Assembly: GCF_013003985.1 (NCBI RefSeq)
Contig: NZ_CP053073.1
Coordinates: 2,480,001-2,544,000 of the forward strand
DNA length: 64,000 nt
From: Usitatibacter palustris
Lineage (GTDB): Bacteria; Pseudomonadota; Gammaproteobacteria; Burkholderiales; Usitatibacteraceae
Direction: 5' to 3'
Under the pieces are notes generated by a model that made no database searches, had not been told where the DNA came from, and saw nothing but the letters and a program-made list of their open reading frames with translations. Positions 31,877 to 51,196 of the stretch are shown piece after piece (the first letter of the stretch is position 1; every line of letters starts with the position of its first letter). The position numbers were made by a program, and so were the translations under genes.

Positions 31877-32402
31877 CGTGACCCTCCCGACGCTGGTCTT
31901 TCGCCGCGGCGATGTCGAAGCCGATCCCTGGACGTTCATCGGGCTCGACGGCATCGATCCGCTGGCACCCCTGCCCGATGGGCCCGTCGCCGTGCCGCTC
32001 TCGCAATGGCGCCTGCAACGCGCCTCGCTGTGCGCGCGCCACGGCCGCGTCGGCGTGTGGCTCGCTCCCGACGACGACCCGCAGCTTCTCGCCGATGACT
32101 TCGGCCTCCTGACGCTCGTCGCGATCCGCTTCCCGAAATTCACCGACGGCCGTGGCTACTCGACGGCCGTGGTGGTCCGCCGCAACGGCTACAAGGGCGA
32201 GCTGCGCGCCTTCGGCGACATCGGCCTCGACCAGGTCTTCTACCTGTCGCGCTGCGGCTTCGACGCGTTCTCGCTCAAGCCCGGCCTCGACCCGGGCGAC
32301 GCCGCTCGCCACCTGCGCGACTTCGGCAACACGTACCAGGCCGCCGTCGACAATCCGCTGCCGCTGTTCCGGCGCCGCCAGCTTGCGAGAGGTGCCGCGT
32401 GA
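31869..32402 (+). CDS. DUF934 protein of sulfur assimilation
   Basis: 177 residues matching DUF934, a family that sits directly after the sulfite reductase gene in many Proteobacteria. Visible landmarks: FPKFTDGRGYSTAVVVRR, KGELRAFGDIGLDQVFYLSRCGFD. No catalytic motif is known. It overlaps cysI by eight bases and cysH by four, so cotranslation with both is likely. A structural or electron-transfer role for sulfite reductase has been suggested from context. Confidence 0.88.
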   Translation: MPDVTLPTLVFRRGDVEADPWTFIGLDGIDPLAPLPDGPVAVPLSQWRLQRASLCARHGRVGVWLAPDDDPQLLADDFGLLTLVAIRFPKFTDGRGYSTAVVVRRNGYKGELRAFGDIGLDQVFYLSRCGFDAFSLKPGLDPGDAARHLRDFGNTYQAAVDNPLPLFRRRQLARGAA

Positions 32403-35276: not shown

Positions 35277-36048
35277 GGTCTGGCTCGTCGGCGCCGGCCC
35301 GGGCGCTCCCGATCTGCTCACGCTGCGCGCAGCTCGCCTGCTCGAAGCGGCCGACATCGTTTTCTACGACGCGCTCGTGCATCCGGAGACGCTGGCACTC
35401 GCGAAACGCGCGCGCCTCGTGGATGTGGGCAAGCGCAACGGCAAGGTTTCCACCGAGCAACGCTTCACGAACCGCGCGCTGGTCGAAGCCGCGAAGACCC
35501 ACGCCACCGTCGTGCGCCTCAAGGGCGGCGACCCGATGCTGTTCGGCCGTGCGCATGAAGAGCTCGAAGCGCTGGCTGCCGCGGGCATCGAAACCGAAGT
35601 GGTTCCGGGCATCACCGCCGCGCTCGCCGCGAGCGCCTCGCTCAAGCTTTCGCTCACTCGCCGCGGGCTCTCGCGCAACGTCGCGTTCGTCACGCCGCGC
35701 GCCGGCGAAGGCCAGTCGCCCGCCGAATGGCTGGCGGTCGCTTCGTCCGCGGACACCGTGGCGATGTATATGGCCGCCACGCAAGCCGCGCAGGTCGCCG
35801 CCGACCTCATCGCGGCCGGCCGCTCGCCCGACACGCCCGCCGTCTTCATTGAAAACGCGTCGCTGTCCAATGAGCGGCGCGTCGCTACCCGTCTCGATTC
35901 ACTGCGCAACGGCCCGGCGCCCACCTTTGAAGGGCCCGCGCTCCTGCTCGTCGGAGAAGTCTTCAGGGAAGTCTCGCTTGGTGCCATGGAACACGAGGCG
36001 GAAGTTCGTCTCGCCGTGACCGAGCGATGTCGGGCCCGCTCGGCCTGA
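35269..36048 (+). CDS. cobA: Uroporphyrinogen-III C-methyltransferase
   Basis: 259 residues. Motifs of the precorrin-2 methyltransferase family: [20 protein letters not shown] at the start, [17 protein letters not shown], and [13 protein letters not shown]. It makes precorrin-2, the precursor of siroheme used by CysI. There is no fused CysG oxidase/ferrochelatase domain, so that step must be encoded elsewhere. It overlaps cysN by eight bases. Confidence 0.93.
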
Positions 36049-36101
36049 CGGCTTTCCGCCGGCGCCCCGCGCCGGTTCATCAACGACTTCACGGAGCAAC
36101 C

Positions 36102-37112
36102 ATGATCCGCAAGACCGCTGTTCGCAGTTTCCTCGTCGCCGCATTTCTCGCCGGCGGCATCGCCCACGCCGACGTCACCCTCCTCAACGTGTCGTACGAC
36201 CCGACGCGCGAGCTCTACGCCGACTTCAACAAGGCCTTCTCCGCCCAATGGGAGGCGAGGAACAAGGAGAAGGTCACGGTGAAGCAATCGCACGGCGGCT
36301 CGGGAAAGCAGGCCCGCTCCGTGATCGACGGCCTCGAGGCCGACGTGGTGACGCTCGCCCTCGCCTACGACATCGACGCCATCTCCGAGAAGGCGAAGCT
36401 GCTGCCCGCCGATTGGCAGAAGCGCCTGCCGCAGAACAGCACGCCTTACACGTCGACGATCGTGTTCCTCGTGCGCAAGGGCAATCCCAAGGGCATCAAG
36501 GACTGGGATGACCTCACCAAGCCCGGCGTGGCGGTGATCACCCCGAACCCGAAGACCTCGGGTGGCGCGCAGTGGAACTACCTCGCCGCCTGGGAATACG
36601 CGAAGCGCAAGAACGGCGGGAGCGAAGCGAAGGCGAAGGAATTCGTCACCGCGCTCTACAAGAACGTGCCGGTGCTCGATTCGGGCGCGCGCGGCTCGAC
36701 GGTGACCTTCGTCGAGCGCGGCATCGGCGACGTCTTCATCTCGTGGGAGAACGAGGCGTTCCTGTCGATCAAGGAGCTCGGTCCCGACAAATTCGAGATC
36801 GTGGTCCCGCCGCTGTCGATCCTCGCCGAGCCGCCCGTGGCCGTCGTCGACAAGGTCGTCGACAAGCGCGGCACGCGCAAGCAGGCCGAGGCCTACCTCA
36901 AGTACCTGTACACGGAGGAAGGGCAGGAGATCGCGGCGAAGCACTACTACCGCCCGACCAACGCAAAGGTGGCCCAGAAGTACGCGAGCCAGTTCCCGAA
37001 GGTCACGCTCTTCACGATCGGCGATGCGTTCGGCGGCTGGCAGAAGGCCTCGAAGACGCACTTCCAGGACGGCGGCACGTTCGACCAGATCTACCAGCCG
37101 GGGAAGAAGTAG
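36102..37112 (+). CDS. sbp: Periplasmic sulfate-binding protein
   Basis: 336 residues with a signal peptide ending AHA near residue 23. Family landmarks of Sbp/Cys[45 protein letters not shown], and the sulfate-binding [12 protein letters not shown] and [15 protein letters not shown] lies before the ATG. It delivers sulfate (or thiosulfate) to the CysTWA transporter encoded next. Confidence 0.93.
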
Positions 37113-37113
37113 C

Positions 37114-37956
37114 GTGTCCTTCCTGCAACGACGCCACAGCGTGCTCCCGGGGTTCAACCTCGCCCTCGGGTTCACGGTGCTCTATCTCAGCCTGATCGTC
37201 CTGATCCCGCTCTCGGCGGCGTTCATCAAGACGTTCACGCTCACGTGGGACCAGTTCGTCACGCACGTGACGAACCCCCGCGTGCTGGCGTCGCTGCGGC
37301 TCACCTTCGGTGCGTCGTTCATCGCAGCACTCATCAATGCGGTGTTCGGCCTGCTCGTGGCCTGGGTGCTGGTGCGCTACAAATTCCCGGGCCGCCGCTT
37401 CATCGACGCGCTCGTGGACCTCCCGTTCGCGTTGCCCACCGCGGTTGCGGGCATCGCACTCACGGCGATCTACGCGCCCAACGGCTGGCTCGGGAAGCCC
37501 TTGATGGATCTCTTCGGCCTCAAGGTCGCGTTCACGCCGCTGGGCGTGCTGGTCGCGCTTACCTTCATCGGAATGCCGTTCGTCGTCCGCACGGTGCAGC
37601 CGGTGCTCGAGGACCTGGAGCGCGAGCTCGAGGAGGCCGCGCAGTCGCTGGGTGCGAGCCGCCTGCAGACGTTCGTGCGCGTCGTCCTGCCCACCGTCCT
37701 GCCGGCGCTGCTCACGGGGTTCGCGCTCGCCTTCGCGCGCGCGATCGGCGAGTACGGCTCGGTGATCTTCATCGCCGGCAACATGCCGATGGTCTCCGAG
37801 ATCGCGCCGCTCATGATCATCACCAAGCTCGAGCAGTACGACTACGCGGGCGCGACCGCGATCGCCGTCGTGATGCTCGTCGCGTCCTTCATCCTGCTGC
37901 TGGGCATCAACGGATTGCAGTGGTGGTCGCGGCGCCATGCGGAGCGCAAGAACTGA
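37114..37956 (+). CDS. cysT: Sulfate ABC transporter permease CysT
   Basis: 280 residues from a GTG one base after the sbp stop. Six membrane spans; the EAA loop is [23 protein letters not shown]. First of two permeases of the sulfate/thiosulfate importer. The sequence starts [19 protein letters not shown], typical for CysT. Confidence 0.93.
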
Positions 37957-37957
37957 C

Positions 37958-38821
37958 ATGGCCGCCGTGCTCGCTTCTCCCGCCCCCGCCGTGCGCGCTC
38001 GCCGCGCGCAGCGCCCGATCCCGTGGGTTCCGATCGCGTTGGTGGGCGTGGCTCTCCTCTACCTCACGGCATTCCTCTTCATCCCGCTCTTCGCGGTCTT
38101 CTTCGAGGCACTGAAGAAGGGCTGGGGCGTGTACCTCGCGGCCATCAGCGAGCCCGATGCCTGGGCCGCGATCCGCCTCACGCTCATCGCTGCGGCCATC
38201 GCCGTGCCGCTCAATCTCGTCTTCGGGATCGCTGCGGCCTGGGCCATCGCGAAGTTCGACTTCCGCGGCAAGAGCGCGCTGATCACGCTGATCGACCTGC
38301 CCTTCTCCGTGTCACCCGTGGTCTCGGGCCTCATCTACGTGCTGATCTTCGGCCTTCAGGGCTGGCTGGGCCCGTGGCTGCAGGGACACGACGTGAAGAT
38401 CATCTTCGCGGTGCCGGGCATCGTGCTCGCGACCGTCTTCGTCACGTTCCCGTTCGTCGCGCGCGAGCTGATCCCCCTCATGCAGGCGCAGGGGCGTGAA
38501 GAGGAGGAAGCCGCCGTGCTGCTGGGTGCGAACGGCTGGCAGCTCCTGTGGCGCGTGACGCTGCCCAACGTGAAGTGGGGCCTGCTCTACGGCGTGATCC
38601 TCTGCAACGCGCGTGCGATGGGCGAGTTCGGCGCGGTGTCGGTGGTCTCCGGTCACATCCGCGGCATGACCAACACGCTGCCGCTGCATGTGGAGATTCT
38701 CTACAACGAGTACCAGTTCGCGGCGGCCTTCGCGTGCGCTTCGCTCCTGGCCCTCCTCGCCCTCGTCACGCTGGCCCTCAAGACGTGGGTCGAGTCGCAT
38801 CAACGAAAGGAATCCCGATGA
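37958..38821 (+). CDS. cysW: Sulfate ABC transporter permease CysW
   Basis: 287 residues, six spans, with the EAA loop [22 protein letters not shown]. The N-terminus has an extra 20-residue alanine/arginine-rich cytoplasmic stretch. Second permease of the sulfate importer. One base after cysT; its stop overlaps the cysA start (ATGA). Confidence 0.93.
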
Positions 38822-39819
38822 GCATCTCGATCGCCGGCGTCTCGAAGAACTTCGGCAGCTTCAGCGCATTGAACGACGTGACGCTCGACATCGCGCCCGG
38901 CGAGCTCGTGGCGCTGCTCGGCCCATCGGGCTCCGGCAAGACCACGTTGCTGCGCGTGATCGCCGGGCTCGAGCGCCCCGACCGCGGTTCGGTGCACTTC
39001 GAGGGCGAGGACATCACCGACCAGCGCGTGCAGGACCGCGGCGTGGGCTTCGTCTTCCAGCACTACGCGCTCTTCCGGCACATGACGATCTTCGAGAACG
39101 TAGCCTTCGGCCTGCGCGTGCGCCCGCGCGCGGAACGTCCGACCGACGCGCAAATCCACCGCAAGGTGAAGTCGCTGCTCGAGCTCGTGCAGCTCGACTG
39201 GCTCGCGGACCGCTACCCGCACCAGCTCTCCGGCGGCCAACGCCAGCGCATCGCGCTCGCCCGCGCGCTCGCGATCGAACCCAAGGTGCTCTTGCTCGAC
39301 GAACCCTTCGGCGCGCTCGACGCCAAGGTGCGCAAGGAACTTCGTCGCTGGCTTCGCCGCCTGCACGACGAAATCCACCTCACAAGCGTGTTCGTCACGC
39401 ACGACCAGGAAGAAGCGCTCGAGGTCGCCGACCGCGTGGTCGTCTTCAACCACGGGAAGATCGAGCAGGTGGGCACGCCTTCCGAGGTGTATGACACGCC
39501 CGCCTCGCCCTTCGTCTACCAGTTCATCGGCCACGTGAACGAGCTGGCGAGCGACGAGGGTGTGGCCTACGTGCGCCCGCACGAGATCGACGTCGTCGAC
39601 GCCTCGCATCCGAATGCCGTGCAAGCGCTGCTCGAGCACGTCGTGCGCCTGGGCCCGCGCGTGCGCCTCGAGCTCCTCGCCACCGCGGGCAACACACCGC
39701 TCGAAGTCGAGCTCACCGCCGACGCGTTCGCCTCGCTGAACATCAAGGCCGGGGACACGCTGCACGTCGTGCCCCGCAGCGCACGGGTGTTCCCGATCGC
39801 CGACGCCAGGGCCGCCTGA
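38818..39819 (+). CDS. cysA: Sulfate ABC transporter ATPase CysA
   Basis: 333 residues. Walker [10 protein letters not shown], signature [15 protein letters not shown], Walker [13 protein letters not shown], and H-loop [10 protein letters not shown]. The C-terminal 100 residues form the regulatory beta domain usual for CysA. Completes the sulfate importer and thereby the pathway from uptake to sulfide. Confidence 0.94.
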
Positions 39820-41215: not shown

Positions 41216-41348
41216 CCTTGGCGTTGATTCGATGGTTGACAAGAGGGGCTGCAAAGGCAAACCATTGCGGGGAATAACAAAAAGCCGCTGACACCGACCC
41301 CAAGCAACCCCGGCGAAGCCATCAGCACCGGGATACGAGGTGAAGCAA

Positions 41349-42311
41349 ATGCGACTCCTGCCCCGCTGTGCTGCGACCGCCGTCGCCGCATTGGCCTTGC
41401 TTGTAGGCCTTCCCGCTTCTTCCCAGACTGCCCCACCCGCCAAGGAACCCGCGAAGGAAAAGTACGCGCCTGCGACGCCGGTCTGCGCGGGCTGCCACGC
41501 GCAATCGCATGAGTCGATCGCGATGTCCCATCATGGTGCGAAGAACGATGCCGGCGGGAGCATGTGCCAGGCGTGCCACGGCGACGCCTCCGAACACATC
41601 AAGGATCCCACCACGAACAAGATGGTCAACAAGTTCGTGAAGGCGCCGGCCGCCGAGAAAAGCGCGGTTTGCCTCACGTGCCACACCACGAACCGGCACC
41701 TCGCGTTCTGGGAGTCGGGCAAGCACTCGAAGAACGATGTGGCCTGCTCGGATTGCCACAATATCCATGGCAAGGCCAAGGCGGCGACCGTGGCGCCCTA
41801 CACCACGACCTCGCGCCCGCTCGAAGCCGACACCTGCGGCACCTGCCACAAGCAAGTGCGCAATGCCGCGCTCAAGCCCTCGCACCACCCGATCATCGAA
41901 GGCAAGGTGAAGTGCTCCGACTGTCACAATCCGCACGGTGCCGTCACTCCTGCGATGCTCAAGCACGAAACGGTCAACCAGCAGTGCTTCTCCTGCCACG
42001 CCGACAAGCGCGGCCCCTTCGTCTTCGGGCATCCGCCGGTCGAGGAGAACTGCCTCACGTGCCACACGCCGCACGGCTCCTCGCATGAAAAGCTCCTGAC
42101 GGAGAAGGCGCCCAACCTCTGCCAGGACTGCCACGTGACGGGTCGCCATCCCACCAGCTTCTACGGCTCGGGCCAGGGCTGGAACCTTCCAAGCGGGGCT
42201 CCCAACAGCGCCGTCAGCTCGCGCTTCATCGCGCGGGGCTGCCTCAACTGCCACAACTCGGTCCACGGCTCCAACGCCCCGACCAGCCGTGGCAAGTTCC
42301 TGATCCGATAG
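41349..42311 (+). CDS. Periplasmic decaheme cytochrome c, MtrA/DmsE family
   Basis: 320 residues from the ATG at 41349, with GAGGTGA six bases upstream; an in-frame GTG at 41340 is part of that ribosome site. A signal peptide ends near ASS-Q. Ten CxxCH motifs are present: CAGCH, CQACH, CLTCH, CSDCH, CGTCH, CSDCH, CFSCH, CLTCH, CQDCH, CLNCH. Length and heme number match MtrA, MtoA, PioA and DmsE, which sit inside an MtrB porin and pass electrons across the outer membrane. The partner porin gene follows after 10 bases. Confidence 0.93.
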   Translation: MRLLPRCAATAVAALALLVGLPASSQTAPPAKEPAKEKYAPATPVCAGCHAQSHESIAMSHHGAKNDAGGSMCQACHGDASEHIKDPTTNKMVNKFVKAPAAEKSAVCLTCHTTNRHLAFWESGKHSKNDVACSDCHNIHGKAKAATVAPYTTTSRPLEADTCGTCHKQVRNAALKPSHHPIIEGKVKCSDCHNPHGAVTPAMLKHETVNQQCFSCHADKRGPFVFGHPPVEENCLTCHTPHGSSHEKLLTEKAPNLCQDCHVTGRHPTSFYGSGQGWNLPSGAPNSAVSSRFIARGCLNCHNSVHGSNAPTSRGKFLIR

Positions 42312-42321
42312 GAAGGCGACC

Positions 42322-44430
42322 ATGAACCGCAAACTGATCGCAATCCTCGTCGCCAACGTCTTCGCGGCCGCGACCTCGCCCGCCTTCGCGCAGTCGAGCG
42401 ACTTCAGCGTCACCGGTACCGCCAGCGTCGGCGGAATCATGACGGACACAAACGCCGTCGACGCGTCGAAACTCAACGAGTACCAGGACCTCTCCAGCGG
42501 CCTGATGACCCTGTTCGACATCCGCGGACGCGGCAGCCGATACTGGTTCGACCTCTTCGGCGAGAACCTCGGCCGCGACGACCAGTACATCGCGATGCGC
42601 GGCGGCCTCTATGACGTCTTCAAGTACCGCCTCTCCAGCGATTCGCTGCGCCACAACTTCCTCTTCAACGGTCGCACGCCCTACAGCGGTGCCGGCAGCG
42701 ACATTCAGACGGCGGCCCCCCCCTTCCCGCGCCTCAACCAAGGCACGTGGAACAACATCGACATGGGCTACAAGCGTCGCGACGACGCGGGCATGTTCGA
42801 GTACCAGGGAACCGATCCGTGGTACTTCCGCGTCGACGGCAACCAGGTGACCACGAAGGGCACGAAGCCCGGCGCCGCTTCGCAGGGCCTGAGCCCGGGC
42901 AACGGCTTCGTGGACCTCTCGCTTCCAGTCGACTACGTCACGCGCAACGTGAGCGTCGAGGGCGGCTATACGACCCGCACGATGCACTTCAACGTGTCGT
43001 GGATGACCAGCAAGTTCGAGACCGACAACGAAGCCGTCACCTGGCAGAACGGGTACTGGGGCAACGGGATCGACCGCACGGCGCTCGCGGCCGACAACAA
43101 GTACACGCGGGTCATGGCCAACGCCACGTTCCGGCAACTGCCGCTCGCGACCACGCTCGCCGCGCGCTACACCAGCGACGAGCTGGAGAGCGATGTGGGA
43201 CTCCCGGGTTCCGTCCTGAGCACCACCACGGGCGGCACGTCGCCGACCGGGGCGACGAGCAGCACTTTCGGCGGCAAGGTGACCAACAAGACCCTGACGC
43301 TCTCGGCGGTGTCCGCGCCGATGAAAGCGCTCGACACGCGGCTCTACTACAACTACCGCGAGCGCGACGACGAGTCGTCCACGGTGAGCTTCGAGAACGG
43401 CGCCTACGTGACCGAGCCGTTCTCGTACGAGAAGGACAACTACGGATTCGAGGCCTTCTACCGCCTCGATCGCGGCAACCGCATCGGCGTGGGCTACGAC
43501 TACCTTGAAACGGACCGCGAGGGCCGGAGCGACTTCGACCGAACCAAGGACCGGCGCCTGTTCGCCGAATGGAAGAGCACGTCGCTCGAGGATCTTTCCG
43601 CGCGCCTGAAGTACCAGCGGCTCGAGCGCGAATCGAACTTCCTCCATGCCAACGACGGGACGAGCAGCACCGACGTCAACTACCTCAACCGCTACGTGAC
43701 GGCGTTCGACCTTTCGAACGTGGACCAGGACCTCTGGAAGCTCACGCTCGACTGGACGCCGTTCGCGAACCTCGACCTGGGCTTCGAAGGCATCATCAAG
43801 AACAACAAGTTCAAGGACAACTCGCTGGGCCGGCTCAAGGACGACCGGCGTGAAATCTACGTGAACGCGTCATACGCGATTCCCGGCGGCGCCAGGTTCA
43901 CCGTGTTCGGCGACTCCGAGGAGATCAAGTACGACTCGACACACCGCATCATCGGCTCAGGCACGACGACCGGCGCGTACGATCCGGCCTCTCCCGCGAA
44001 CGCGAGCAACTACAACTGGTCGGGGAAGATCAAGGACCGCAACTGGGCGGTGGGCGCTGCGTTCGACTGCCCGATGGGCGAGAAGCTCTCGATCAAGGCC
44101 TCGGCCATCTACTACAAGACCGACGGAACCGTCGACCTCGCGCTGCAGGATGGCGTCCCCACTTCGGTCACGCGGCCGCTTCCGATCGCCGACTGGGATG
44201 ACACGCGGCGCACCTCGTTCACGCTCAAGGCGGTGTACGCCTTCAGCAAGACGTGGTCCTTCACCGCGGGCTACGCGTACGAGCGCTACGAGTACAAGGA
44301 CTCCCAGTTCGACGGATATCGCTACACCATCCCGGCGTCGACCAATCAGGACAGCTACCTCTCCGGCGTCTACGCCAACCCGCAGTACAAGGCCAACTTC
44401 CTCTACGGGCTGGTGAACTACCGCTTCTGA
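42322..44430 (+). CDS. MtrB/PioB-family outer membrane beta-barrel
   Basis: 702 residues. Signal peptide ending AFA-Q; the rest is a large barrel of alternating strands rich in aromatic girdles, ending NFLYGLVNYRF with the C-terminal Phe of outer membrane proteins. It belongs to the decaheme-associated MtrB/PioB family by length, pairing and segments such as RYWFDLFGENLGRDDQYIAMRGG. The CxxC near the N-terminus of Shewanella MtrB is absent. Together with the decaheme protein it should form an electron conduit; no MtrC-type surface cytochrome is encoded here. Confidence 0.88.
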   Translation: MNRKLIAILVANVFAAATSPAFAQSSDFSVTGTASVGGIMTDTNAVDASKLNEYQDLSSGLMTLFDIRGRGSRYWFDLFGENLGRDDQYIAMRGGLYDVFKYRLSSDSLRHNFLFNGRTPYSGAGSDIQTAAPPFPRLNQGTWNNIDMGYKRRDDAGMFEYQGTDPWYFRVDGNQVTTKGTKPGAASQGLSPGNGFVDLSLPVDYVTRNVSVEGGYTTRTMHFNVSWMTSKFETDNEAVTWQNGYWGNGIDRTALAADNKYTRVMANATFRQLPLATTLAARYTSDELESDVGLPGSVLSTTTGGTSPTGATSSTFGGKVTNKTLTLSAVSAPMKALDTRLYYNYRERDDESSTVSFENGAYVTEPFSYEKDNYGFEAFYRLDRGNRIGVGYDYLETDREGRSDFDRTKDRRLFAEWKSTSLEDLSARLKYQRLERESNFLHANDGTSSTDVNYLNRYVTAFDLSNVDQDLWKLTLDWTPFANLDLGFEGIIKNNKFKDNSLGRLKDDRREIYVNASYAIPGGARFTVFGDSEEIKYDSTHRIIGSGTTTGAYDPASPANASNYNWSGKIKDRNWAVGAAFDCPMGEKLSIKASAIYYKTDGTVDLALQDGVPTSVTRPLPIADWDDTRRTSFTLKAVYAFSKTWSFTAGYAYERYEYKDSQFDGYRYTIPASTNQDSYLSGVYANPQYKANFLYGLVNYRF

Positions 44431-44491: not shown

Positions 44492-44773
44492 TTACTGCGA
44501 CAGCACCCACTTCGCGAGCGCTTTCCGGTCATCGGCGCTTGCCTTCTCGCCACCGTGGTGCTTGGCGAGCTTGGCGACAACCGCGTCTTCCTTGCCCTTG
44601 TTCTTCGCGGCGATGTCCTTGAACGCCGGGCCGACTTTCTTCGCCGCCACGTCGTGGCAGGTCATGCAGCCGCTCTTCTTGGCGAGCTCTTCCGAGCCCT
44701 GGGCCGAAACCGCGACCAGGCCGAGGCCCGCGCCGAGGACAACGGTGGTGACAATCGCGATGCTGGCTTTCAT
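44492..44773 (-). CDS. Small class I cytochrome c
   Basis: 93 residues. Signal peptide to about residue 24 (VSAQG), one heme site CMTCH near residue 36, and a distal methionine expected in the C-terminal part; the only candidate Met after the heme motif is not obvious, since none appears after residue 37, so the sixth ligand is uncertain. About 70 mature residues, the size of cytochrome c8/c552-type carriers. It lies 64 bases after the NapC-like gene and may shuttle electrons among the periplasmic respiratory proteins. Confidence 0.88.
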   Translation of the reverse strand: MKASIAIVTTVVLGAGLGLVAVSAQGSEELAKKSGCMTCHDVAAKKVGPAFKDIAAKNKGKEDAVVAKLAKHHGGEKASADDRKALAKWVLSQ

Positions 44774-44837: not shown

Positions 44838-45419
44838 TCAGGGCGCTGTATGCGCAATGCCCTTGTGGCAGTCGATGCACGTCGCCTTGCCCTCCATCAC
44901 CGTGGCGTGGATCGGCCGCACCATTTCCTTCTGCTTGGCGAGTACTTCCTTCGTGAAGACGTGGCAGTTGCGGCAGGCCTGGGAATTGTTGCCGGCGTAT
45001 TCCTCCCACACGTGCTTGGCCATTTCCATGCGGGCCGCCTTGAATTTCGCCTCGGTGTCGATCACCCCGCGCATCTCGCCGATGACGTCCTTGATGCCGG
45101 CCCTCGCCTTGTAGAAGAGGAGGTAGGGGTAATCCTTCGGGATATGGCAGTCGTGGCACGTGGCGGCCACGCCGGTGCGATTGGTGCCATGGATACCGTC
45201 GCGGTGCTCCTTCGCGACCCATTGCATCGAGTGGCAGGCCGTTCCGCAGAATTTGTCCGTACCCGTGACGTTGACCATGACCTGCGTGCCGATGATCGCC
45301 ACCGATCCGATCACGAAGCCCACCACGAGCAAGCCCAGCACGGACCACTTCGCGCTCGGACTGCGAAGGCGATGCCAGGTGCGTTTCAGGAAGCCAGGAT
45401 TTCCGTTCTCTGCGGCCAT
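44838..45419 (-). CDS. NapC/NirT-family membrane tetraheme cytochrome c
   Basis: 193 residues. One N-terminal membrane anchor (residues about 25-47), then four heme sites: FCGTACH (CxxxCH), TCHDCH, ACRNCH and TCIDCH. The family oxidises quinol in the membrane and hands electrons to periplasmic reductases; here NrfA, encoded in the neighbouring operon, is the likely partner, in the role of NrfH. The decaheme conduit is another possible acceptor. AGGAG precedes the ATG. Confidence 0.9.
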   Translation of the reverse strand: MAAENGNPGFLKRTWHRLRSPSAKWSVLGLLVVGFVIGSVAIIGTQVMVNVTGTDKFCGTACHSMQWVAKEHRDGIHGTNRTGVAATCHDCHIPKDYPYLLFYKARAGIKDVIGEMRGVIDTEAKFKAARMEMAKHVWEEYAGNNSQACRNCHVFTKEVLAKQKEMVRPIHATVMEGKATCIDCHKGIAHTAP

Positions 45420-45513: not shown

Positions 45514-46470
45514 TCATGCGGCATGAACGGGCCAGGTTTCGTTCGCGTGGCGCAGGAGGGCGGGCTCGGTGGCACATCGGCCGATGAAGTCGCGCACCTC
45601 GGCGCTCTTCCACGCAGCCCTATAGGCGTCCCACGCCTGCTCGATGGAATCGTGGCGCAGGTCGGCCGGCGCGAATGGCAGCGCATTGAGCAGCTTCACC
45701 TTGCCGTTGGGCACGACCAGCAGCATCGCCTGCGGGCTGTCGAGGCGCGTGCGCACCTCCTGCAGGATGTCCCAGGGATAGATCGACAGCTCCACCGTCG
45801 AGCGCGTCTCCAGCGCACGTGCGCGCAGGGCCTCGACAGCCGCGGTCCACGCGGCGGGATCGGGGGAAACCGTTTCCCAGGAGAGCGCCGCGCGGCCCAG
45901 GCGCATCAGGGGGCCGGTGACGAAGGCCTCGCAGCCGAGCTCGCCCGCGAGATCGTAGGCGGCGACGATTTCGTGCAGGTTGAAGCGCGTGGGGGCGAAC
46001 ACGAACTGCGACTTCATCCCGCGACGGGCAAGGCGCTCGATCGCGCCGACGGCGGCTGCAAAGCTCGATCCGGGCCGGACGCGCTCGTGGGTTGCGGCCG
46101 TCGCGCCATCGACGGAAATCTGGATGCACTGGATGCGAAGCGCGGCGATGCGGTCGGCCCCCGCCTCGTCGATGCGGCTGCCGTCGGTCTCGAGCTTCAG
46201 CGAAACGCCGCCACGCGTGAGGACCTCGAAGATGTCGTACGCATGCGGGACGCCGAGCGGTTCGCCGCCGCCGAAGGCCGCATACGGAATGCCCGCCTCG
46301 ACGATCGCGCCAGCCAGGCGCAACGCCTCATCGCGCGACAGCTCGTCGCGCCACGCCTTGTCGGGACCGGATTCCTCGCAGCAGGTGATGCAGCGGGCGC
46401 TGCATCGATTGGTCAGCTGCCAGGCAATGAAAAGGGGCGCGCGGTACGACTCGACCGCGCGCCCCGGCAT
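45514..46470 (-). CDS. Radical SAM protein 1 of the PqqA-like peptide cluster
   Basis: 318 residues. SAM cluster motif C23-x3-C27-x2-C30 (NRCSARCITC), GGGEPL near residue 68, and QISVDGATAATHERVR. The C-terminal block VPNGKVKLLNALPFAPADL, then SIEQAWDAYRAAW, mirrors the SPASM/twitch region of PqqE-type enzymes (PNGxVxxC...GN...SLxExW) but has lost the auxiliary-cluster cysteines. It is homologous to the other two radical SAM proteins of this operon and starts 13 bases after the small peptide gene. Probably modifies that peptide. Confidence 0.85.
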   Translation of the reverse strand: MPGRAVESYRAPLFIAWQLTNRCSARCITCCEESGPDKAWRDELSRDEALRLAGAIVEAGIPYAAFGGGEPLGVPHAYDIFEVLTRGGVSLKLETDGSRIDEAGADRIAALRIQCIQISVDGATAATHERVRPGSSFAAAVGAIERLARRGMKSQFVFAPTRFNLHEIVAAYDLAGELGCEAFVTGPLMRLGRAALSWETVSPDPAAWTAAVEALRARALETRSTVELSIYPWDILQEVRTRLDSPQAMLLVVPNGKVKLLNALPFAPADLRHDSIEQAWDAYRAAWKSAEVRDFIGRCATEPALLRHANETWPVHAA

Positions 46471-46483
46471 GGAGTGCGGAATA

Positions 46484-46636
46484 TCAGGTGAAGCGGATAT
46501 ACGGCTGCGCCATCACCTCGGCGGAGACGTCTTCCATCTTCGGCGTTTCCCAGGGCTGCTTGTCCTGCGGCAGCGTCTTGCGCGTGACAGGTTCCGGGGT
46601 GCCGGGCTGCTCGATCGAAAGCTTCGGTTCGCTCAT
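46484..46636 (-). CDS. 50-residue PqqA-like peptide, candidate RiPP precursor
   Basis: A short gene with GAGGAG seven bases before its ATG. The first half is a polar Pro/Glu/Lys leader-like stretch. The second half carries W29-x2-P32-x3-D36-x3-E40, then Y46-I-R-F-T at the end. PqqA has W-x2-P-x3-D followed by E-V-x-x-x-Y-I; the core here keeps W, P, D, E-V and Y-I with changed spacing. It lies between two radical SAM genes, with a PqqD-like gene in the same operon, which is the expected setting for a modified peptide. Not matched to any named precursor family by me. Confidence 0.75.
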   Translation of the reverse strand: MSEPKLSIEQPGTPEPVTRKTLPQDKQPWETPKMEDVSAEVMAQPYIRFT

Positions 46637-46648
46637 CGCTCTACTCCT

Positions 46649-47602
46649 CTAGGCATTGACCAACGGTAACAGCTGCCACACATTCGCTCGCGCGTGCCGG
46701 GACTCGTCGGCAACCGCATCGCGCACGGCTGCCGCCATTGTAGCCTCGTGCCACGCGCGTTGATAGGCCCCCCACGCCTCGGCAAGGCTCTCCCGCCGCA
46801 GGTCCGCGCAGGCCTGCGGCAAGGCGGCGGCGACCTTCACCCAGCCGTTCGGGAGCACCAGGAGCGTGGCCGGAGGGTCCCCGAGGCTCGAGGCGAGGGC
46901 CTCCTCAAGGCTGAAGGGCTCGAAGCACATCTCCATGCCGGTTTGCGACGCCGCCTCCCGGAGCAGTGTCCGGAAGGCGACCCAGGCGTCCTCGGCTGGC
47001 GCCACCTTGTTCCAATGGCGCGCGGCGGTTCCCACCCGCATGAGCCGTCCCGAATTGAAGCGGAATGCACCGAACGAGCGCGCCCGGTCGATCACGGCAC
47101 GGGCCTCATGCAAATTGATTCGGGTCGGGGCGAAGGTGATCTCCAGTGGCAGGCCTGCTTCGCGGACCGCGTGGCACGCCTCGTGCGCCCGGGCGAGCGA
47201 GCCTCCCGGCCGCTGCTTCGCATAGACCTCCTCGGTATCGCCATCGAGGCTGATCTGGATCGAGCGGATCGGCAGCTTCGCGAGGCGCTGCGCAATGGCC
47301 GCGTCGAACCGTTGGCCGTTCGTTTCGATCTTGAGCTGCACGCCGCGCGAGCCCAGCGACTCGGCGACCTCGAAGAAATGCGGTGCCACGAGCGGCTCGC
47401 CGCCCGCCAGCATCACGTAGGGCACCTCGTTGGCGACGATGTCATCGGCCAGGCGCAGCGCCTCCTCGCGCGTGAGCTCGTCGGGCAAGCGCTTGCCGGG
47501 GGCCGAATCCGTGCAGCAATGCAGGCAAGCGAGATCGCAATCGCGCGTGAGCTGCCACGTGATCAGCAGTGGCGACCTCAGCGCATCGATGCGATGGCTC
47601 AT
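46649..47602 (-). CDS. Radical SAM protein 2 of the PqqA-like peptide cluster
   Basis: 317 residues from the ATG at 47602, which overlaps the prenyltransferase stop by four bases. Motif C22-x3-C26-x2-C29 (RDCDLACLHC), then AGGEPLVAPHFFE and QISLDGDTEEVY. The C-terminal block LPNGWVKVAAALPQACADL has one cysteine only, so a normal SPASM auxiliary cluster is not possible. The frame is open further upstream inside the prenyltransferase gene, but that reading is arginine-rich and not favoured. Its stop lies 12 bases before the peptide gene. Confidence 0.87.
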   Translation of the reverse strand: MSHRIDALRSPLLITWQLTRDCDLACLHCCTDSAPGKRLPDELTREEALRLADDIVANEVPYVMLAGGEPLVAPHFFEVAESLGSRGVQLKIETNGQRFDAAIAQRLAKLPIRSIQISLDGDTEEVYAKQRPGGSLARAHEACHAVREAGLPLEITFAPTRINLHEARAVIDRARSFGAFRFNSGRLMRVGTAARHWNKVAPAEDAWVAFRTLLREAASQTGMEMCFEPFSLEEALASSLGDPPATLLVLPNGWVKVAAALPQACADLRRESLAEAWGAYQRAWHEATMAAAVRDAVADESRHARANVWQLLPLVNA

Positions 47603-48519
47603 CGCACTGCCTGCGCGACGATGCCGAGCGCGAAGCCGCCGGTGGCCACGAGGTACGCGAGCACCATCGCGCGCATGGCCGGAAGGAATTCGCGCGGCGC
47701 GGAGTGATGGCGAAGCGACGTGCGCGCACTGGTCACGACCAACGGCGCCGCGAGGAGCGCGGCGAGGCACCCCACCGGAAACATCTTCGCCACCACGCCG
47801 ATCAAGACGATCGCGAGACCTGCAATCGCAAGGCCGAGATAGAGGCGCACGGCCGGCTCGCGCCCGAAGCGCACGACGAGGTTTCGCTTGCCGACGAGGC
47901 GGTCCTGGTGGAAATCGGGAATCGCGTTCACGACGGCGAGCGCCATGATGAAGCACGCGGGCACGAGCGACGCGGCGAACGCTTCCCACGAAACCGAGCG
48001 CGTGTGCAGATACAGGCTCCCCAGCACCATCCACGGGCCGTACGAGAGCGCGATGACGAGCTCGCCCAACCCGCGGTAGGACCAGCGGATCGGCGGCGCT
48101 TCATAGAAGATCGCCGCGGCGCCGCCGAGCAGCGCGAAGACGATGATCGGCCAGCCGATGTGCCAGGCGAGGTACACGCCTACGGCGAGCGCACCTGCGA
48201 AGGCCACGGTGCCGATCCAGAACACGGCCTGCGCGATAGGCGGGATGTCCTCCGGATTGAACACGCGATCGGTGCCCATGCGCGCGTCGAAGTATTCATT
48301 GAACGCTTCCACGCCGATCACGCTCAGCACCACGCCACCGAACGCGCTCCAGAAGGCGGCGGTGTCGAACGCACCCGCGATCGCCCACGCCCACGCGGCG
48401 CCGAGCAGGTAGGGAAGTAGCCCCGCGTAGAGGAAGAAGCGGTAGCGGACCAGGCTCGCGATGCGCCAGAGCCGCGCCGCGAAACCCGTCTCGGCGACCG
48501 GACGGGGCGCTGCGCTCAA
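47599..48519 (-). CDS. UbiA/MenA-like prenyltransferase in the peptide cluster
   Basis: 306 residues with eight to nine membrane spans. Both Asp-rich motifs of the superfamily are visible: NEYFDARMGTDR near residue 85 and the DFHQDRLVGKRNLVVRFG segment near residue 205, closest in pattern to MenA-type enzymes that prenylate dihydroxynaphthoate. The favoured start is a TTG overlapping the stop of radical SAM 3 (TTGA); a GTG at 48531 is possible. Being locked by overlaps between two radical SAM genes suggests it attaches a prenyl tail to the cluster product rather than serving ordinary quinone synthesis. Confidence 0.82.
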   Translation of the reverse strand: MSAAPRPVAETGFAARLWRIASLVRYRFFLYAGLLPYLLGAAWAWAIAGAFDTAAFWSAFGGVVLSVIGVEAFNEYFDARMGTDRVFNPEDIPPIAQAVFWIGTVAFAGALAVGVYLAWHIGWPIIVFALLGGAAAIFYEAPPIRWSYRGLGELVIALSYGPWMVLGSLYLHTRSVSWEAFAASLVPACFIMALAVVNAIPDFHQDRLVGKRNLVVRFGREPAVRLYLGLAIAGLAIVLIGVVAKMFPVGCLAALLAAPLVVTSARTSLRHHSAPREFLPAMRAMVLAYLVATGGFALGIVAQAVR

Positions 48520-49469
48520 ACGTGCACCCACTTGTGCAGCGTGCGGGTGCGCTCCGGATCGACCGCGAGCTCGTCGACGAAGCTCACGACGCGCGGGTCG
48601 TGCCAGGCACGGCGGAAATTCGCCCACACTTCGGCGAGCGATTCCTTGCGCAGGTCCCCGCAGATGAACGGCAGCGCGTTGATGAGCTTCACGAGGCCGT
48701 TGGGCAACACGATGAGCAGCGCTGCCGGGTGTTCGAGGCGGTAACGAAGCTCCTCGAGCAAGCCCGCCTCGTGATAGTTCACCTGCATGCGGCCGCGATA
48801 CTCGAGGCGCTTGACCGCGAGCGTCTGGAAGTACTCGGCGTATTGATCATCGGTCACCGAAAGATGGCGCCAGGCCTTGACCGCATTGCCGGTGAACATG
48901 GTGCGGCCGGAGTAGAAACTCGCGGCGCCCAGCTCGAACGCGAAATCGACGATGCGCTCGGCTTCATGGATGTTGAAGCTCGCGGGCGAGAAGTTCACCT
49001 CGATGGGCACGCCCGCCGCGGCGAGATTGCGGATGCCCGAGACCGTGCGATCGAATTGCCCGAGCACGCGCATGCGCCCGAACGTCGCACTCGATGCACC
49101 ATCGAGGCTCACCTGCACCGCCTTCACGCCGAGGTCCTTCAGGCGCGCGCAGTTCTCCGGGGTGAGGTAGTGGCCGTTGGTCTCGATCTTGAGCTGGCTG
49201 CCGCGCGTGGTGACACGCTCTACCATCTCGAAGAAGTGCGGATGCAGCATCGGCTCGCCGCCCGAGAACGAGAGGTACGGCACCTCGTTGTCCATGAGCT
49301 GATCGATGACGCCGAGCACTTCCTCGCGCCCGAGCTCATCGGCAAAAGCCTTGCCCGGACCGCTCTCCTCGATGCAGTGCAGGCAGGCGAAATTGCACTC
49401 GTTGGTGATCTGCCACGCGACGTAGAGCGGCGCGGCGAGGTCTTCGGAGTGCGCGGCGCTGCCGCTCAA
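48516..49469 (-). CDS. Radical SAM protein 3 of the PqqA-like peptide cluster
   Basis: 317 residues from a TTG that overlaps the PqqD-like stop (TTGA). SAM cluster C25-x3-C29-x2-C32 (NECNFACLHC), SGGEPMLHPHFFE, VQVSLDGASSATFGRM. C-terminal block LPNGLVKLINALPFICGDL followed by SLAEVWANFRRAW, with one cysteine only. Best preserved of the three and nearest to PqqE in pattern; its direct overlap with the PqqD-like gene suggests these two work as a pair. Confidence 0.88.
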   Translation of the reverse strand: MSGSAAHSEDLAAPLYVAWQITNECNFACLHCIEESGPGKAFADELGREEVLGVIDQLMDNEVPYLSFSGGEPMLHPHFFEMVERVTTRGSQLKIETNGHYLTPENCARLKDLGVKAVQVSLDGASSATFGRMRVLGQFDRTVSGIRNLAAAGVPIEVNFSPASFNIHEAERIVDFAFELGAASFYSGRTMFTGNAVKAWRHLSVTDDQYAEYFQTLAVKRLEYRGRMQVNYHEAGLLEELRYRLEHPAALLIVLPNGLVKLINALPFICGDLRKESLAEVWANFRRAWHDPRVVSFVDELAVDPERTRTLHKWVHV

Positions 49470-49717
49470 TCCTGCACCAGCCCCTTCTCGCGCATCTCCG
49501 CGAGGAACGCCTGCACCTCTTTTTCGATGGTTTCCGCCGGCGCTTCGAACTTCGTCGCGAGCCGCGGCGCGATCTCCGCCGCCCCCGCGCCCGCCACGAT
49601 CTCGCGCACGATGGCCGCGGCCGTCGGGGTCAGCGTGAACACTTTCTCGGAGCGCGTCTCGAACAGCACGCCGCCGAACTTCTCCTCACGGAACTTCACA
49701 TATTGCGCAAGCTGCAT
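49466..49717 (-). CDS. PqqD-like peptide-binding protein (RRE)
   Basis: 83 residues. Pattern of a PqqD fold: VKFREEKFGGVLFETRSEKVFTLTP forms the beta part, then helices starting TAAAIVREIVAGAG. PqqD-type RRE domains hold the leader of a precursor peptide for the radical SAM enzyme. It follows nrfA by 18 bases and overlaps radical SAM 3. GGGAG lies 10 bases before the ATG. Confidence 0.88.
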   Translation of the reverse strand: MQLAQYVKFREEKFGGVLFETRSEKVFTLTPTAAAIVREIVAGAGAAEIAPRLATKFEAPAETIEKEVQAFLAEMREKGLVQD

Positions 49718-49735: not shown

Positions 49736-51196
49736 TCAGGATTTCTTCGCGGGAGCCTTTTCGGGCGCCTTCGCGGGTGACTTTTCAGCCGCTTTCGCAG
49801 GTGCGGCCGGCGGCGGCGGGATGTCGACGACCGGCACCGTCGGCTTGAAGTTCTTGTCGCGCAGCGCGATCTGTCCCTGGCGCGCGAAGTCCATCGACTC
49901 GCCGAGGATCCTCGCGCCTTCCTGCGGCGCATGGAACCCCGTGGAGTTCTCGGCTTCGGCGAAATCGAGGTAGAACTGCGCGCGCCGCTGCAGGTAGAGG
50001 GCGGTCTTGAGGTCCGCCTCAGTCCGTCCTGCCGCCTTCGCCTTCTTCAAATCATTGATCAGGCCGACCACGGCCGTCATCGCCTTCTCGCGAAGCTCCC
50101 AGTGACGGTCCTGGATCTGGTCGACGCGGGCCTTGAGGTCCACGGCGGTCACCTTGTCGTCATGCTTCTTGTGGCAGGTCACGCACGCCGCCTCGATGTT
50201 GAGCACGGGACTGCGCACCCAGTGATCCGTGAAGCTTCCCGAGATCGACGGCATATGGCAGTCGGAGCATGTCACACCTGCGCGCGCATGCGGCCCCTGG
50301 CTCCACATCTCGAATTCCGGGTGCTGGGCCTTCAGCGCGGGTGCGCCCGTGTCCTTGTGCGTCCAGTCGCGGAAACCGATCTCGTCGTAATAGGCGGTGA
50401 TCTCCTCGACCTTGATGCCCTTGGCCCACGGATACGTGAGCCGCTTCTGGTCGCCCTTGAAGTAGTACTCGACGTGGCACTGGCCGCAAACGTAGGCCCG
50501 CATCTCGTTGGACGAGGCCTGCTTGTTGACGTCGTAGTCCTTCACGCCCTGCGTCGCCTTGAGGGCACGGATCCCTTCGATGAACGCGGGGCGCGAGACG
50601 CGCAGCGCGAGCGTCTTGCCATCGTGGCAGTCGATGCACGCGACTGGATGGTTCACGAGCTTCGCCGCCTCCGCGTAGGGCATCGCGTTGATCTTCTCAA
50701 AGCCCTTCGTGATGTCGCCACCGCCCGCCTTCTTGTAGGCGACATACATCGACGCGTGGCAATTGATGCAGGCACCCGGTTGCTTCACGACCACCTGGCG
50801 CTGCGTGAGCTTCTGGTCCTCGAGCATGTACGCGTGGCCGCGCTCTTCGCGGAAATCCGCGGCGAAGGCGTAGCCCGCCCAGATCGCGCGGAGGCCCGCG
50901 TCTTCGTCGCTCTTGGAGCGCGCGACGACCGAGCGCGGATCGGCTTGCGTCGCCTTGTGCGGCACGGCCTCGCTGCCGCCGTGCTTCGTGCGTTGCATGT
51001 CGACGGTCTTCTTGTAGAGCTCGTAGTGCTTGGGGAAAGCCTTGCCCCACACGGCCGGATCGTCGGTGTCGTCGTTGTACGGGGGACCCGCTTCCTTCTT
51101 CGCTTCCTGCGGGATGCTCGCGGTGGGGAAAAGCAGCAGCGTCGCCATGAAGGCAGCGATGGTCATGCGAAGTGCGGAACGCGGCTTGGCAATCAT
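49736..51196 (-). CDS. nrfA: Pentaheme ammonia-forming nitrite reductase NrfA
   Basis: 486 residues with a signal peptide. Five heme motifs: C143-INCH, C187-IDCH, C237-GQCH, C310-SDCH, C338-VTCH. The first is the catalytic heme; it has CxxCH where E. coli has CxxCK. Active-site residues fit NrfA: R202 region (LRVSRPAF), Y235 (AYVCGQCHVEYYF) and H303 (GPHARAGVTC). Reduces nitrite to ammonium in the periplasm. The last 30 residues are a Pro/Ala/Lys tail not needed for the fold. GGAGAG precedes the ATG. It heads the operon with the peptide-modifying genes. Confidence 0.92.
   Translation of the reverse strand: MIAKPRSALRMTIAAFMATLLLFPTASIPQEAKKEAGPPYNDDTDDPAVWGKAFPKHYELYKKTVDMQRTKHGGSEAVPHKATQADPRSVVARSKSDEDAGLRAIWAGYAFAADFREERGHAYMLEDQKLTQRQVVVKQPGACINCHASMYVAYKKAGGGDITKGFEKINAMPYAEAAKLVNHPVACIDCHDGKTLALRVSRPAFIEGIRALKATQGVKDYDVNKQASSNEMRAYVCGQCHVEYYFKGDQKRLTYPWAKGIKVEEITAYYDEIGFRDWTHKDTGAPALKAQHPEFEMWSQGPHARAGVTCSDCHMPSISGSFTDHWVRSPVLNIEAACVTCHKKHDDKVTAVDLKARVDQIQDRHWELREKAMTAVVGLINDLKKAKAAGRTEADLKTALYLQRRAQFYLDFAEAENSTGFHAPQEGARILGESMDFARQGQIALRDKNFKPTVPVVDIPPPPAAPAKAAEKSPAKAPEKAPAKKS

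Follow-up and report, generated by a model that had tools for sequence, protein, structure and literature searches.

A conserved six-gene operon for a short peptide, three radical SAM enzymes and a MenA-like prenyltransferase: a candidate pathway to a peptide-derived membrane quinone

A stretch of 64,000 nucleotides from Usitatibacter palustris (here called the window) contains a compact operon of six genes, which encode a PqqD-like protein, three radical SAM enzymes (rSAM1, rSAM2 and rSAM3), a UbiA-type prenyltransferase and a short peptide. The operon is real and far beyond chance, since its gene order recurs across phyla and the last eight peptide residues are identical in all 59 related loci that reach them. 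These six genes may well constitute a self-contained pathway to a membrane quinone, the aromatic head group of which would be cut from a ribosomally made peptide; the product is probably menaquinone or demethylmenaquinone, made by a chemistry that we infer. More tentatively, we propose a third menaquinone pathway, in which the three radical SAM enzymes would build the naphthoquinone ring from the peptide end AQPYIRFT, and which would have originated in Elusimicrobiota and spread to Proteobacteria. To our knowledge, menaquinone is made by only two routes, classical and futalosine, and both begin at chorismate. If the proposal is true, the cassette would provide a third route to menaquinone (vitamin K2) and the first known lipoquinone to derive from a ribosomal product. 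It would establish a new bioenergetic principle, open up new radical chemistry and explain the respiration of Rhodopila and of a group of Elusimicrobiota without known quinone genes, with the one peptide gene as a simple genetic handle on the pathway.

The operon and its recurrence

All six genes lie on the minus strand where a sequence-only reading of the window had placed them, as a tight operon. Their order is pqqD (49466-49717; an RRE/peptide chaperone of 83 residues; PF05402, 52 bits), rSAM1 (48516-49469, TTG start), the MenA/UBIAD1-like UbiA prenyltransferase (47599-48519, TTG start; PF01040, 84 bits), rSAM2 (46649-47602), the precursor peptide (46484-46636) and rSAM3 (45514-46470), with the three radical SAM proteins scoring 70-84 bits against PF04055 (Radical_SAM) in Pfam. 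Four-base overlaps join pqqD to rSAM1 (TTGA), rSAM1 to the prenyltransferase gene (TTGA) and the latter to rSAM2 (ATGA), and the peptide gene is separated from rSAM2 by 12 bases and from rSAM3 by 13. On one side, 18 bases lie between the stop codon of nrfA, encoding an ammonia-forming cytochrome c nitrite reductase (49736-51196, minus strand; Cytochrom_C552, PF02335, 423 bits), and the ATG of pqqD. On the other, a gap of 94 bases separates rSAM3 from the gene for a NapC/NirT-family tetraheme quinol dehydrogenase (44838-45419, minus strand; PF03264, 185 bits), beyond which are a small c-type cytochrome (44492-44773, minus strand; PF00034, 24 bits) and a decaheme/porin pair (41340-44430, plus strand) convergent to the operon. 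No Rfam match was obtained in the window.

Of 65 related loci, 51 have the complete gene order and 14 are interrupted by contig ends (one of the latter, L098, is also frame-broken). The hosts belong to two distant phyla, as Elusimicrobiota and as Alpha-, Beta- and Gammaproteobacteria, and the co-occurrence of peptide, PqqD, three radical SAM enzymes and prenyltransferase, on which the sequence-only reading depended, is seen in fixed order across these loci. When the five large genes are compared pairwise across 48 loci, their distance matrices show correlations of 0.64-0.88, and none of 500 permutations reaches the observed value for any gene pair. PqqD is 81% identical in the sister genome GR16-43, 42% in L089 and 54-66% in the other loci having it, and the window genome has no second PqqD match. 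One locus, L106, combines peptide, PqqD and prenyltransferase with a single radical SAM enzyme, and thus three such enzymes are not always needed. Spread on plasmids was considered and rejected: the cassette peptide has no plasmid match, and rSAM1 has only eight remote plasmid relatives (31% over 86% of the query, 42% over 45%).

The peptide and its enzymes

The C-terminal core of the peptide occupies 46487-46516 (minus strand, the stop codon at 46484-46486 excluded). Of the 59 loci that extend this far, 58 have VMAQPYIRFT and one has VTAQPYIRFT. The core is encoded by varying synonymous codons, up to four per site, and the leader varies around a conserved W-x-x-P-x-x-E-x-V-S. The only aromatic residues of the core are Tyr -5 and Phe -2. 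Judged from these alignments, the core shows cofactor-like constancy, and the combination expected of a RiPP cofactor, a constant-core peptide together with an RRE and a maturase, is found in the 51 complete loci of the 65. The predicted length of 50 residues was correct, but the label 'PqqA-like' gains no support from family models: neither Pfam nor NCBIfam gave a match at E ≤ 1, to PqqA or to any other family, in a search that so short a peptide can escape.

The CX3CX2C motif is intact in 55/55 homologues of rSAM1, 58/59 of rSAM2 and 54/55 of rSAM3. The three enzymes had been described as sharing a PqqE-like C-terminal block; the enzymes are there, but the block is a degenerate SPASM remnant, and in the PNG..K region rSAM1 keeps one cysteine in 55/55 loci; of 55 rSAM3 sequences scored, 46 have no cysteine there. 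The predicted model of rSAM1 (pLDDT 90) is closest to the solved folds of SkfB and PqqE. Among the best 25 NCBIfam matches per protein, no family of heme, PQQ, mycofactocin or other radical SAM enzymes was reached at its cut-off, in agreement with the sequence-only reading, which had hinged on these enzymes not being orthologues of a known heme or quinone pathway. The best model is AhbD for rSAM1 and MftC for both rSAM2 and rSAM3.

The AhbD match and the adjoining cytochromes would suit radical SAM enzymes acting on heme, in the manner of heme d1 synthesis or AhbD, with the UbiA protein as a heme farnesyltransferase. This is most improbable: at 124 bits the match falls short of the cut-off of 500, the best 25 NCBIfam matches of the cassette prenyltransferase include no heme o synthase model, and the window genome, Rhodopila globiformis and four Elusimicrobiota each encode another protein that best matches heme o synthase. 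(Of five second UbiA-family proteins typed in Elusimicrobiota, one is MenA-like and four are nearest to heme o synthase, whose cut-off two of these exceed.) We also know of no place for a dedicated peptide and RRE in known heme pathways. A secreted prenylated RiPP, serving as antibiotic or signal, would fit the usual RiPP layout of RRE, radical SAM enzymes and short peptide as well as the SkfB-like fold of rSAM1. The cores of antibiotic and pheromone peptides, however, are as a rule not invariant across phyla, as this core is, and no exporter or immunity gene occurs among the typed neighbour clusters (many clusters are untyped); we consider this reading very doubtful.

For the prenyltransferase, the best NCBIfam models are those of MenA (NF004751, 110 bits against a cut-off of 264; TIGR00751, 74 against 102), and on sequence grounds it is MenA-like, not a recognised MenA. 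UBIAD1 is the closest solved structure both by sequence (1.1e-11) and by Foldseek, and also leads the VIA-align comparison, with Z 25.1 across 269 residues and 21.4 for the runner-up, at 15-19% identity over the fold. The Asp-rich motifs of the UbiA family are present as N(E)xxDxxxGxD (strict form in 51/55) and NxxPDxxQDRxxGK (42/55), and N72, D76, G80, D82, N196, D200, Q203 and D204 are invariant in 24 alignment rows. In 34 of the 37 Elusimicrobiota-type loci having pqqD, a polyprenyl-diphosphate synthase is encoded directly upstream of it. A further MenA-like protein in each of Rhodothalassium (L132), G480 (L134) and the window genome (L139) was rejected as a cassette member, with only 23-41% identity in local alignments; the presence of these proteins speaks against the proposed quinone pathway.

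The cassette shares a short precursor peptide, a PqqD chaperone and a radical SAM enzyme with the biosynthesis of PQQ, itself a quinone derived from aromatic residue(s). It differs in having its core at the extreme C-terminus, three radical SAM enzymes without a full SPASM domain, and a membrane prenyltransferase; PqqB, PqqC and the Pqq peptidase are not seen in the window operon, no peptidase common to all cassette loci was found, and scores stay below cut-off for PqqE (TIGR02109, 39-80 bits for the radical SAM proteins against 381) and PqqD (TIGR03859, 35 against 46). An RRE, a radical SAM enzyme and a constant C-terminal core are also features of mycofactocin, where the MftA core ends in Val-Tyr; the cassette core instead ends in Tyr-Ile-Arg-Phe-Thr and a prenyltransferase takes the place of a glycosyltransferase (MftC, TIGR03962, 102-123 bits against 265; MftB, TIGR03967, 22 against 33). 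GeoRSP and SynChlorMet likewise combine a PqqD relative with radical SAM/SPASM proteins, but we know of no prenyltransferase in either, and their models (TIGR04302/04303 and TIGR04248/04250/04251) give about 19.5 bits for PqqD against 100 and at most 85 for the radical SAM proteins against 400. The heme d1 and AhbC-D models (TIGR04545, 04546, 04051, 04054, 04055) give at most 124 bits against 500-650.

Among quinone pathways, the classical one (MenF/D/H/C/E/B/A/G) resembles the cassette in its MenA-like last step, its UbiE/MenG methylase in Proteobacteria and the proposed product, whereas the cassette head group would come from a peptide and not from chorismate. In the futalosine pathway (MqnA-E, MqnP), too, a prenyltransferase of the UbiA family acts downstream of radical SAM enzymes, but that of the cassette is MenA-like and not MqnP-like (cf. 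L130). UBIAD1, the menaquinone-4 synthase to which the prenyltransferase is structurally closest, prenylates menadione. Outside subscription papers and preprints, none of the papers listed for the gene set or for a peptide-derived quinone seemed to describe such a system, which is weak evidence of absence, and literature on Usitatibacter and quinones was unrelated by title among the matches listed.

Quinone genes in the host genomes

Rhodopila globiformis DSM 161 is reported to have menaquinone in its membranes, modelled at the QA site of the reaction centre (PMC9640540). The same strain carries the cassette (L052/G477). Its genome, which like most other cassette genomes is a draft, gave neither a MenD score above cut-off nor any MqnA/D match, and its MenB-like match was rejected as MenB, being BadI. 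The cassette protein is its only MenA-like prenyltransferase, the other four UbiA-family proteins best matching the 4-HB, bacteriochlorophyll, heme o and PRK08238 types. Near-cut-off MenB matches occur in four Rhodopila genomes (G467, G476, G477 and G482) and in G466; the three scanned (G477, G482 and G466) are BadI. MK-10 is likewise reported for Rhodovibrio (PMC7179689), and Rhodovibrio sodomensis has the cassette (L064); it stood outside the whole-genome searches.

Of the 20 proteobacterial genomes with the cassette, 19 have no match above cut-off to either MenD or MenB. MenD exceeded its cut-off in 1/51 genomes (G595, G617 and 18 cassette-free genomes being left out of this search) and MenB in 1/71, in both cases in G469, a cassette-bearing MAG with true menB and menD, which counts against the proposed pathway. 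A strong MqnA/D match (PF02621) was found in 0/50 full-cassette genomes of the 71 searched; the sole match among the 50, in G507, is weak and partial (33 bits against a cut-off of 26). UbiE is present in all 20 proteobacterial cassette genomes, which makes ubiquinone probable there.

In cassette-bearing Elusimicrobiota-type genomes, cut-offs were exceeded by MenB in 0/30, MenD in 0/29 and MenG/UbiE in 0/30, and MqnA/D gave a weak and partial match in 1/30, while NuoH scores at least 245 bits in 29/30 and full-length CydA occurs in 6/30. Judged by gene content, complex I is retained in cassette-bearing Elusimicrobiota in the absence of known quinone genes, and the same holds for some cassette-free members. 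Two strong PF02621 matches, as MqnA and MqnD, occur in 6 of 18 cassette-free Elusimicrobiota (Fisher 0.0015), which were hand-picked and not a random draw. As evidence, however, such absence lacks specificity: 7 of the 13 picked cassette-free genomes with NuoH of at least 245 bits also have neither strong MqnA/D nor MenB over cut-off; these are drafts, and some NuoH matches may be hydrogenase subunits.

The lack of MenG in cassette-bearing Elusimicrobiota suggests an unmethylated or a different product there. It also favours the reading that the cassette makes a non-menaquinone peptide-derived lipoquinone, such as a new benzo- or heterocyclic one, with Rhodopila menaquinone arising by another unrecognised route. 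Probable ubiquinone in the 20 UbiE-bearing Proteobacteria and the single-enzyme variant L106, which indicates that the set can differ, would suit this reading as well. We nevertheless judge it rather unlikely, because R. globiformis has menaquinone without MenD, MenB, MqnA/D or another MenA-like prenyltransferase, and because the nearest models and folds are those of naphthoquinone prenyltransferases.

For the proposed menaquinone pathway, we envisage PqqD holding the leader in the region of W-x-x-P-x-x-E-x-V-S and delivering the C-terminal core to rSAM1, rSAM2 and rSAM3. By cross-linking or cyclisation of core residues (Tyr -5 and/or Phe -2), these enzymes would form a bicyclic aromatic acid with hydroxyl groups, resembling 1,4-dihydroxynaphthoate, which would then be released. 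The MenA-like enzyme would exchange the carboxylate for a polyprenyl chain, giving demethylmenaquinone, which UbiE could methylate to menaquinone in Proteobacteria. The cassette would be the sole quinone route of many Elusimicrobiota lineages, and, having moved to phototrophic and anaerobically respiring Proteobacteria, would fill the QA site of Rhodopila.

Neighbouring genes and NrfA

The window operon joins nrfA, the NapC/NirT gene and cytochromes on one strand, an arrangement from which the sequence-only reading had derived a coupling to NrfA, and which would suit a prenylated, lipid-anchored peptide cofactor for multiheme cytochromes such as NrfA or NapC. That reading is improbable: NrfA was found at more than 60 bits in 0/65 related loci (flanks of up to 10 kb, several loci being short), NapC/NirT lies near the cassette in 1/65, on the opposite strand in GR16-43, and other cassette hosts have different neighbour genes. 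The coupling was thus not upheld, and of the four partners expected to co-occur, peptide, PqqD and UbiA do so, but NrfA does not. It adjoins the cassette only in this window, where it is locally attached and not a conserved part. A membrane quinone that diffuses freely fits the data better than a lipid-anchored cofactor of one enzyme; what stands of the earlier proposal is a peptide-derived, prenylated, probably quinone-like compound of respiration. The NapC/NirT quinol dehydrogenase, NrfA and cytochromes of the window would be local users of a low-potential quinone.

In GR16-43, pqqD comes after an alpha/beta-hydrolase gene, and a small c-type cytochrome, with a relative in L092, is also encoded near the cassette on the opposite strand. 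A caspase-domain/ankyrin gene overlaps the rSAM3 end in five related loci only. A COQ10/RatA gene adjoins rSAM3 in six loci (L041, L051, L057, L067, L084 and L097), but was rejected as a conserved partner: it is on the cassette strand with certainty only in L041, L051 and L057 (three Rhodopila MAGs), has the opposite orientation in L067 and L097, and is missing in R. globiformis. In L057, the next gene encodes a PIN-domain protein.

The operon and its precursor peptide

The operon occupies exactly the position given to it by the sequence-only reading, with all six genes on the minus strand: pqqD (49717-49466), rSAM1 (49469-48516), a UbiA-type prenyltransferase gene (48519-47599), rSAM2 (47602-46649), the precursor peptide gene (46636-46484) and rSAM3 (46470-45514). 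All were assigned by Pfam except the peptide, which matched no family there and had zero NCBIfam matches. Neighbouring genes either overlap by 4 bases or are 12-13 bases apart. Among the NCBIfam matches listed for the cassette proteins, models for the PQQ, mycofactocin, GeoRSP, SynChlorMet and heme systems all fell below cut-off.

The end of nrfA lies 18 bases from pqqD, and 3′ of the cassette come genes for a NapC/NirT protein and for a small cytochrome c. The proposed coupling of a peptide-derived redox cofactor system to NrfA was not borne out, NrfA being a local neighbour of the cassette and not a partner. In the sister genome GR16-43 the adjoining NapC/NirT, cytochrome and porin genes are on the opposite strand, and hence outside the cassette operon there. 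The picture that remains, of a conserved and transferable cassette, is stronger than the original claim. Convergent with the cassette in the window is a decaheme cytochrome and outer-membrane porin pair (41340-44430, plus strand), MtrA/MtrB-like by appearance, which also adjoins the cassette in GR16-43 and has weaker relatives at loci L056 and L093. Judged from translations only, sulfite reductase, PAPS/sulfate-adenylyltransferase, siroheme and sulfate ABC-transporter genes stand in a row at 30203-39819.

The peptide ends in AQPYIRFT followed by a stop at all 59 loci that reach it, where the search pattern had preset Gln-Pro, Tyr or Phe, and Ile, and every locus with an rSAM2-rSAM3 interval matched. 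The ending is VMAQPYIRFT in 58 of the 59 and VTAQPYIRFT in one; with the window and loci L106 and L107 counted in, the last eight residues are common to 62/62 peptides. Codons of this core vary synonymously across the 59 loci (Pro, for example, is CCC in 33, CCG in 17, CCT in 7 and CCA in 2). Upstream, W-x-x-P (60/61 and 61/61) and E-[ED]-V-[ST] are almost constant, and the leader beyond them is variable. From sequence, this pattern would fit a cofactor precursor rather than an antibiotic.

Radical SAM enzymes and distribution

The CX3CX2C motif is kept in 55/55 rSAM1, 58/59 rSAM2 and 54/55 rSAM3 homologues, both misses being frame-broken genes of the Elusimicrobiota genome JAD_PAG50586 (L077). 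Most cysteines of the SPASM region are gone. An AlphaFold model of rSAM1 (pLDDT 90) is nearest to the RiPP maturase SkfB, with PqqE next.

Two of six genomes of the window's own genus carry the cassette, and among 369 genomes drawn from its class true relatives of rSAM2 were found in the window's own genome only (best other match 89 bits). A scan of a species-genome collection with a three-radical-SAM alignment and two exact motif patterns yielded 65 loci, from the best 80 of 86 confirmed stretches. Their hosts are Elusimicrobiota, Rhodopila, Acidocella, Acidiphilium, Rhodothalassium, Rhodovibrio, and metagenome-assembled genomes (MAGs) of Azospirillaceae/Kiloniellales and of beta/gammaproteobacteria, one of the last being a metagenome bin that bears the doubtful name Bordetella parapertussis. 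Cassette-level matches occurred in 8 of 149 drawn Elusimicrobiota. The order PqqD-rSAM1-UbiA-rSAM2-peptide-rSAM3 is complete at 51 of the 65 loci, a count that takes in L061 (split UbiA) and L089 (rSAM2 scoring nearer rSAM1); the other 14 are broken by contig ends, L098 being frame-broken as well. The breaks in rSAM2 and rSAM3 at L077 and in UbiA at L061 are perhaps sequencing errors. The cassette is interrupted at one place only, where a 500-residue frame of unknown kind (L094:12468-13970) splits the peptide from rSAM3. A reduced set in one of the eight matching genomes of the 149-genome draw, the Elusimicrobiota genome G617 (L106:8288-10869), consists of a peptide ending VMAQPYIRFT, PqqD, a single radical SAM protein and a prenyltransferase.

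Prenyltransferase and quinone genes

Among solved structures, UBIAD1, the menaquinone-4 synthase, is nearest to the cassette prenyltransferase (model pLDDT 88) by sequence profile, Foldseek and VIA-align (Z 25.1, rmsd 3.7, 269 aligned; runner-up Z 21.4), a likeness of fold that does not prove function; no bacterial MenA stood among the solved-structure matches listed. Genome searches found the cassette enzyme as the sole UbiA-family protein in four cassette genomes, G486, G506, G507 and G508. A polyprenyl-diphosphate synthase gene (PF00348) lies immediately 5′ of pqqD at 34 of 37 Elusimicrobiota-type loci holding pqqD (missing in L085 and L091; L089 begins within pqqD) and adjoins the cassette at 0/21 proteobacterial ones, as would be expected if the chain there were drawn from ubiquinone synthesis. 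Rhodothalassium salexigens has a second MenA-like prenyltransferase (111 bits to a MenA model) immediately adjoining a NapC/NirT gene, away from the cassette (L132:4091-6157). A remote MenA-like protein of 333 residues in the window's genome, outside the window (L139:6706-7704), shares 25-26% identity with this protein and that of G480, and had no match to the cassette prenyltransferase in the same comparison.

The strongest single case for cassette-made menaquinone is Rhodopila globiformis DSM 161 (L052, genome G477). Its membranes are reported to contain ubiquinone, menaquinone and rhodoquinone, and menaquinone is modelled as QA and ubiquinone as QB in a 2.24 Å reaction-centre structure from the same strain (PMC9640540); the menaquinone is given as MK-9 (PMC12542754), and rhodoquinone is also recorded in Rhodopila (PMC10715153). 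MenD of the classical route reached 74 bits in this genome against a cut-off of 244, and MqnA/D of the futalosine route gave zero matches. The best MenB-like protein is BadI (TIGR03210 465 bits, MenB 319, each slightly below its own cut-off). Its five UbiA-family proteins are of 4-hydroxybenzoate, bacteriochlorophyll and heme o types (above cut-off), PRK08238 type (below) and the cassette enzyme. No candidate source other than the cassette was found for the menaquinone that this organism is known to have. MenD and MqnA/D were likewise not found in the Rhodopila MAGs G467, G476 and G482, which share the near-cut-off MenB-like match; that of G482, the sole one typed, is BadI. MK-10 is reported for Rhodovibrio (PMC7179689). 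R. sodomensis carries the cassette at L064. Rhodothalassium also contains MK-10.

Across 20 proteobacterial cassette genomes, UbiE exceeded cut-off in all, MqnA/D in none, and MenD with MenB in one, the bog gammaproteobacterial MAG G469; its true menB and menD (L111:7702-10981) may mean that a single cell has both pathways or that the bin is mixed.

The Elusimicrobiota-type group comprises 30 cassette genomes, eight titled 'bacterium' only, of which two were drawn as phylum members. Matches above cut-off numbered 0/29 for MenD, 0/30 for MenB and 0/30 for the methylase UbiE/MenG; MqnA/D appeared in 1/30 (G507, 33 bits, weak and partial). The complex I subunit NuoH matched at 245 bits or more in 29 of the 30 (G484, 119 bits), and six have a full-length quinol oxidase CydA. 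In a non-random control of 18 cassette-free Elusimicrobiota, from the rows listed of the 149-genome draw, six had two strong PF02621 (MqnA/D) matches each (Fisher p 0.0015 against the 30) and five had MenG above cut-off (p 0.005). Seven (G516, G524, G527, G532, G573, G607, G630) of the 13 cassette-free genomes with NuoH of at least 245 bits also had neither strong MqnA/D nor MenB above cut-off, so such absence alone is no mark of the cassette. In the cassette-bearing group of respiring Elusimicrobiota, the cassette is a good candidate for making quinones. G617, with the reduced set, has MenG; MenB and MqnA/D were not found.

Proposed pathway and spread

From the observed enzyme classes and constancy of the substrate, we infer each chemical step of a route to a membrane quinone. 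PqqD would recognise the peptide leader, the radical SAM enzymes would cross-link or cyclise the core, the modified product would then be released, the prenyltransferase would add a prenyl chain with decarboxylation, and UbiE, where present, would methylate the result. This scheme leaves three main gaps: the carbon balance, a general peptidase and, in Elusimicrobiota, a methylase. A caspase-domain/ankyrin gene shares its first four bases with the end of rSAM3 at five related Elusimicrobiota-type loci (L054, L058, L060, L061, L094); the copy scanned, that of L058 (L058:13944-15506), gave Peptidase_C14 and ankyrin matches. Its product is a possible precursor peptidase, the sole one met and not a general one.

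The five large cassette genes co-evolve (r 0.64-0.88 over 48 loci; 0/500 permutations as high for every pair). In the rSAM1 tree, several long branches of which leave details unsure, the deep and diverse branches are Elusimicrobiota, with Proteobacteria nested within and five Elusimicrobiota-type rows placed among the Proteobacteria; this topology makes transfer of the cassette between phyla likely. A Rhodovibrionaceae MAG with the cassette has a second, remote pair of PqqD and radical SAM genes (L071:2486-4055).
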